Below, piece by piece: positions 31,928-36,470 of a stretch of DNA of 64,000 nucleotides. A program made the translations under genes and the position numbers. Origin of the DNA: Clostridiales bacterium (lineage in GTDB: Bacteria; Bacillota; Clostridia; Saccharofermentanales; Saccharofermentanaceae); assembly GCA_017513085.1 (NCBI GenBank), contig JAFWDK010000019.1, positions 124,001-188,000 on the forward strand, in the 5' to 3' direction. Below the pieces are notes generated by a model that saw only the letters and a program-made list of their open reading frames with translations, was not told the DNA's origin and did not search any database. Position 1 is the first letter of the stretch. The number at the start of each line of letters is the position of its first letter.

Positions 31928-32125
31928 TTTCTATTCCTCCAATATTTTCGTTTTTTCCGACAGGAAATGGTTTCCTTATGTGCCCAAGCAAATACTATCG
32001 CTCCGACACGCAAGTACAGACACGGCAACATCGTGCGTGAGCAAATGCATTCGCGCCGATCCTGAACAAAAACGATCTTTTCGGATAGGGATAAAAAGCA
32101 TGAAAATACGGGTAAAGGACAGCAG
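31928..32125. other. Untranslated region between the ncRNA terminator and cysS
   Basis: 198 bp with no coding frame of note. I see only the cysS ribosome binding site and a small GGAAA/TTTCC hairpin; no T-box consensus. The cysS promoter was not identified with confidence. Confidence 0.5.
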
Positions 32126-32153
32126 ATAAAAGCAAGCCTGCCAAGGCAGGCTC
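32126..32153 (-). terminator. Terminator of the structured ncRNA
   Basis: Stem AGCCTGCC/GGCAGGCT with a very short loop, followed on the minus strand by TGCTTTTATCT. Likely 3' end of the RNA starting near 32388. Confidence 0.75.
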
Positions 32154-32388
32154 ACGCTTCGTGACCAGTTTTGAATCTATCCAACGATCCATTCTTCTTC
32201 CCGCTCTTTTTTGCAAATAAAAGCCCAAAACCGCTACCCACTTTTGACACCTAGCTACAGCCAGGTGGGTACCCTGCGGCAGTCTAAGATCTTCCTAAAG
32301 GAAAATACTAGGCCTGATCGTCTCTGCTTCGACGCGGATTCCCGTTTATGTCATGAAGGTTCAAAAACATGAGCATCAGCTTTAGGTT
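32126..32388 (-). ncRNA. Structured non-coding RNA next to comFC (candidate raiA-type RNA)
   Basis: A transcription unit without a protein gene: consensus promoter at 32395-32423 and terminator at 32126-32153 give an RNA of about 260 nt. Long-range pairings are visible. CCUAAAG near the 5' end (32380-32386) pairs with CUUUAGG (32294-32300), and the adjacent CUGAU (32375-32379) with AUCAG (32314-32318), enclosing an 80-nt domain with smaller hairpins. A 3' domain pairs CCGC plus UACCCAC (32265-32279) with GUGGGUA plus GCGG (32231-32241), holding an inner stem. Position between comFC and cysS matches what I recall of raiA-motif RNAs, often found beside comFC or raiA in Clostridia and linked to sporulation. 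I could not compare to the covariance model; 6S RNA is the main alternative. Confidence 0.6.
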
Positions 32389-32394
32389 GACTTT

Positions 32395-32423
32395 ATTATA
32401 TCAATATATACTTCAATTGTGAA
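32395..32423 (-). promoter_or_regulatory. Sigma-A promoter of the structured ncRNA
   Basis: TTCACA, 17 bp, TATAAT on the minus strand: a perfect -10 and five of six -35 bases. Start predicted near 32388. It lies between the comFC stop and the RNA, so the RNA is not just a comFC 3' tail. Confidence 0.8.
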
Positions 32424-36310: not shown

Positions 36311-36470
36311 AAAAAACCTCTCCTGATAAATCAGAGGAAAGGCTTACACATGTCATATAATCAAATCCTCATCTTTCAGGCTATACCTGCTGGACTTGGC
36401 ACCGCTGCTCGCCGCGGTTGCCGGACTTCATAGGGCCAGATCCCTCCGTCACTCTTGATAAGAGATGAAT
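36311..36470 (-). ncRNA. SAM-I (S-box) riboswitch controlling metK
   Basis: The minus strand carries the S-box core: P1 5' strand CUUAUC (36457-36462), AAGAGUGACGGAGGGAUCUG, then GGCCC, AUGAAGUCCGGCAACC, a P3 hairpin CCGC/GCGG, GGUGCCAAGUCC, and P1 3' strand GAUGAG (36368-36373). The expression platform is a hairpin (36316-36342) followed by TTTTTTG. This is the transcription-termination layout known for S-box leaders. Confidence 0.95.

Follow-up and report, generated by a model that had tools for sequence, protein, structure and literature searches.

A minus-strand gene for a structured RNA was located between comFC and cysS in the window, a 64,000-nucleotide stretch from a Clostridiales bacterium, and we assign it to 6S RNA with a probability of roughly 0.96. 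The identity rests on a full-length match to the Rfam model RF00013, on covariation, on a promoter of its own and on a position conserved across the order. The 6S RNA itself is ordinary; less usual is its position directly before cysE/cysS, as if it were an mRNA leader. A first-pass annotation of the DNA had proposed a structured RNA gene beside comFC as a candidate raiA-type RNA. Conservation, the covariation of the 6S fold and the promoter bore out the gene, while the family name had to be changed. The features of the locus are compiled in Table 1.

Table 1. Features of the comFC-cysS region, in positions of the window
Feature	Position	Strand	Basis or remark
comFC (264 aa), upstream neighbour	33236-32442	minus	syntenic in relatives
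6S promoter: TTCACA, 17-nt spacer, TATAAT; TG before the -10 element	32395-32423	minus	11/12 consensus matches
6S RNA (RF00013), model positions 1-187	32391-32218	minus	Rfam match and orthologue alignment
Closing helix: CCUAAAGCUG (32386-32377) with CGGUUUUGGG (32233-32224), then U-rich CUUUUAUUU	32224-32386	minus	covariation
Helix P2: UUUUGA (32366-32361) with UCAAAA (32247-32242), flanking the central bubble	32242-32366	minus	covariation
Apical arm: GGG (32343-32341) to CCC (32269-32267), several covarying helices	32267-32343	minus	
Hairpin on the 3' side of the central bubble, CACCUGGC/GCUAGGUG	32248-32267	minus	cf. PMC8876501
65-aa ATG frame that remains of cysE after an internal deletion	31995-32192	minus	comparison with cysE of relatives
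Hairpin and short T tract inside the cysE-derived frame, formerly read as a terminator	32132-32155	minus	1 found vs 0.6 expected in shuffles
Conserved Cys-rich C-terminal 25 codons, FLFRIGANA..RCC..C.CVS (RCCxxCxCVS)	31998-32072	minus	candidate cysS leader peptide
Predicted hairpin overlapping the frame end, GUGUCGGAGC/GCUUGGGCAC	31980-32009	minus	fold prediction
cysS (475 aa), downstream neighbour	31927-30500	minus	syntenic in relatives

Family assignment

The locus was scanned with all 4227 Rfam models at E<=10, which yielded a single match, 6S RNA, over the complete model (187 of 187 positions, 44.0 bits, E 1.2e-7). Unlike a typical RF00013 member, the copy in the window scores just under the curated gathering cut-off, by 2.4 bits (44.0 vs 46.4). 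Orthologues at the same locus passed this threshold, among them two of the three closest copies (G018 with 46.6 and G020 with 47.2 bits) and members of the order with up to 69 bits. RF00013 was matched in 73 of 98 relatives, in 28 of them above the cut-off. Of 41 related genomes, the one of the window among them, 33 carried the element in a search at the DNA level, including all 22 genus relatives. Under stricter filters many genomes of the same family gave no RF00013 match, e.g., those of genus g2 (G023, G043, G050); these probably carry divergent 6S copies. The 3.06-Mb genome holds one credible 6S gene; the best candidate for a second copy reached merely 11.5 bits and was dismissed as a chance match.

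The raiA-motif RNA (RF03072) acts in trans and is connected with sporulation and aggregation; its frequent location downstream of comFC has been reported (PMC11477304). This linkage, named in the first-pass annotation, is thus real and is shared by the locus studied here, but it is not diagnostic, as the neighbour of comFC in the window is a 6S RNA. Sequence and structure of raiA RNA were unmatched: RF03072 gave no hit at E<=10 in the locus or in the whole genome, where the 6S model matched in full length. Downstream of the RNA neither raiA/hpf nor transporter genes were present; the cysE remnant and cysS were found instead. A raiA RNA is therefore extremely improbable, and the annotation had itself foreseen that a 6S match would keep the RNA and change its name. 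The comFC matches found were mainly from Blautia and other Lachnospiraceae. Neither raiA nor 6S RNA reached the gathering level next to comFC at 18 loci of Lachnospiraceae, Blautia and others. Elsewhere in the window an ordinary SAM riboswitch (RF00162, 78.6 bits, 36366-36464, minus strand) was observed upstream of metK (36285-35092).

Fold and covariation

Folding of the single sequence was modestly better than that of shuffled sequences, with MFE z-scores of -2.3 for 179 nt and -1.8 for 275 nt, so that the case rests on the comparison with relatives. An alignment of 60 distinct orthologues was folded with RNAalifold and gave a 6S-like fold with two-sided changes in 24 of 32 pairs. Helix P2 was added by hand, after which 38 pairs were counted. 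In these, 94.2% of the alignment cells were paired vs 83.8% in shuffled alignments, two-sided changes occurred in 26 of the 38 pairs vs 17.5, and the cells with such changes numbered 270 vs 72. The covariation score was 0.413 vs 0.214 for the shuffles and at most 0.104 for slid versions of the fold; the shuffles ignore the relatedness of the genomes, whereas the slid controls retain it and agree. Compensatory changes thus back the rod shape of closing arm, central bubble and apical arm. Both P2 and the hairpin on the 3' side of the central bubble, which are of the Firmicutes 6S-1 type, are present; such a hairpin has been described for B. subtilis 6S-1 (PMC8876501).

The search for compensatory changes favoured the 6S fold and not the long-range helices drawn from the letters. 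CCUAAAG/CUUUAGG and CUGAU/AUCAG were paired in 58.0% of cells vs 58.1% after shuffling, and the helix CCGC..UACCCAC/GUGGGUA..GCGG in 45% vs 43.5%, without a clear covariation excess. The modest single-sequence fold would suit a leader or 3' UTR that is structured by chance and has no function of its own. Strong covariation across 60 orthologues and an RNA that stays near-identical within the genus while its flanks diverge make such an origin highly implausible.

In its full-length match, closing arm, bubble with P2 and 3' hairpin, apical arm, own promoter and length of about 175 nt, the RNA resembles 6S/SsrS RNA of the B. subtilis 6S-1 type. By mimicking an open promoter, 6S RNA ties up the housekeeping RNA polymerase, from which pRNA synthesis frees it. 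As a member of this family, the RNA of the window would likewise present itself as an open promoter and capture the housekeeping holoenzyme upon nutrient depletion, and the copying of a short pRNA from the central bubble would lead to its release. The CC that would template the conserved GG of the pRNA was invariant in the 60-orthologue alignment. Published hallmarks of the pRNA are a conserved GG, an upstream A and AA at positions 9/10 (PMC8414754). Agreement of the predicted pRNA with them is approximate: GG at 5/6 with the upstream A places AA at 10/11, not at 9/10.

Promoter and boundaries of the RNA

The consensus promoter of the first-pass annotation was confirmed. It is a near-consensus, extended -10 promoter of the sigma-70 type, the sole promoter-like site in the region (shuffles: 0.9), and the -10 element was retained in the relatives examined. 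The RNA gene is thus equipped with a housekeeping-sigma promoter of its own, from which transcription is inferred to start near 32388. In the genus alignment, conservation was high from CAACCUAAAG to GGCUUUUA, a variable apical loop excepted, and dropped beyond. RNA-type conservation ended at about 32218, just past the closing helix and CUUUUAUUU. Most of the order shares this succession of a closing helix and a U-rich tract, and CUUUUAUUU is therefore the likely 3' end of the 6S RNA, which would extend from about 32388 to 32218, roughly 175 nt.

The earlier estimate of about 260 nt, with an extent down to 32126, was too long, and the added stretch is coding in origin, derived from cysE. The statement that the RNA contains no reading frame fails for the 3' third of the former extent, from 32192 downward, which is overlapped by the 65-aa frame of the cysE remnant. 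The hairpin taken as a strong terminator does exist, but it lies within this frame, some 60 nt beyond the 3' end of the RNA. In 22 of 23 genus loci (including L011-L025) a terminator-like hairpin was found at the matching codons of cysE, whether the gene is intact or decayed; the registers differ, so that conservation of a terminator was not established.

The cysE remnant

Most other members of the genus carry an intact cysE that begins in the stretch 3' of the 6S RNA. In all eight species of the clade (the window and its seven relatives, L004-L010), an internally deleted cysE with a frame of 62-65 aa lies instead between 6S RNA and cysS. Deleted or broken cysE copies between 6S RNA and cysS were observed in several separate lineages (L015, L017, L020, L108 and the clade of the window), and usually the first 40 or so codons remain.

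Selection acts unevenly on the frame in this clade. The N-terminal part was without amino-acid constraint (pooled pN/pS 1.03), whereas the last 25 codons were under strong purifying selection (pN/pS 0.16); across three separate species pairs, Fisher tests gave p 2.8e-7 for the C-terminal and p 0.52 for the N-terminal part. When the C-terminal peptide was sought in 41 related genomes, strong matches came solely from the eight 6S-cysS loci. A Pfam search of the small frame returned nothing. Similarity to a TOMM-type peptide (NCBIfam BorA, E 0.008, 16.1 bits vs a cut-off of 60) reflects the richness in cysteine only; this reading was rejected because the genome contains no YcaO gene.

A cysteine leader peptide that controls cysS is a reasonable candidate function for the C-terminal part of the frame; a small functional Cys protein is a possible alternative. 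A leader with Cys codons upstream of cysS is known from the uORFC-8-2 motif of Rhodobacterales (PMC8632094). As there, a short frame with Cys codons precedes cysS and is followed by a predicted hairpin. The frame of the window differs in being derived from cysE, in following a 6S gene and in having no U-tract terminator, none having been found after the hairpin at its end; homology is not claimed.

Gene neighbourhood across the order

The gene order comFC-6S-(cysE)-cysS was found in most loci examined. In most genomes the 3' end of the 6S RNA lies 14-60 nt ahead of the start codon of cysE or cysS, in a minority 100-250 nt. Several families have the 6S RNA directly before cysS, with 14-31 nt to the start codon (L026, L027, L074, L076, L082, L085, L087, L121 and others); elsewhere in the order cysE intervenes. 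Neither cysS, cysE nor comFC was present within about 1.5 kb at 30 of 30 6S loci outside the order, which were the best-scoring ones and not a random sample, and at which comFC is possibly too divergent to be seen. In lactic acid bacteria, 6S RNA adjoins rarA and uspA (PMC8414754), unlike the comFC and cys(E)S neighbours here. The literature searched, which was of incomplete coverage, contained no description of 6S RNA arranged together with cysS or cysteinyl-tRNA synthetase, and the order-conserved comFC-6S-cys(E)S arrangement is apparently undescribed.

The arrangement suggests that cys(E)S is transcribed with 6S RNA as its leader. From the short spacing between 6S RNA and the start codon we infer read-through: most transcripts would stop at the U-rich tract that follows the closing helix, and the smaller share would continue and supply cys(E)S mRNA. 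A comparable order is known from E. coli ssrS-ygfA, in which the 6S gene stands directly before a protein gene and one promoter serves both (PMC7641849). The position immediately before a protein gene is common to both systems; the downstream genes here are cysE/cysS, and the shared transcript is a prediction. Alternatively, 6S RNA may be transcribed independently, with cysE/cysS expressed from a promoter inside or after 6S RNA or read from comFC, their closeness reflecting gene packing. The own promoter and terminator-like 3' end of the 6S RNA would agree with this, as would the several relatives with 100-170 nt to the next start codon, but the spacing of 14-60 nt in most genomes leaves too little room for a separate promoter clear of 6S RNA, and the gene order has been maintained across several families. 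Such independence is a serious possibility, though we do not consider it probable. For the leader reading we advance a more far-reaching and tentative proposal, rather unlikely to hold in all its parts: throughout the order the cysE-cysS operon would necessarily begin with 6S RNA as its 5' leader, and read-through would tie the supply of Cys-tRNA synthetase to a global regulator of the polymerase. In the clade of the window, the decayed cysE would in addition have taken on a new role as a Cys-rich leader peptide, through which cysS would also sense cysteine.

Implications

The assignment gives a name to an RNA just under the Rfam cut-off, which hence may be unannotated in the order, and it demonstrates that linkage to comFC does not identify raiA RNA. 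The order-wide position of 6S RNA before cysE/cysS, together with the selected Cys-rich end of a cysE remnant in one clade, provides a testable connection between a global regulator of transcription and the supply of cysteine and tRNA-Cys.
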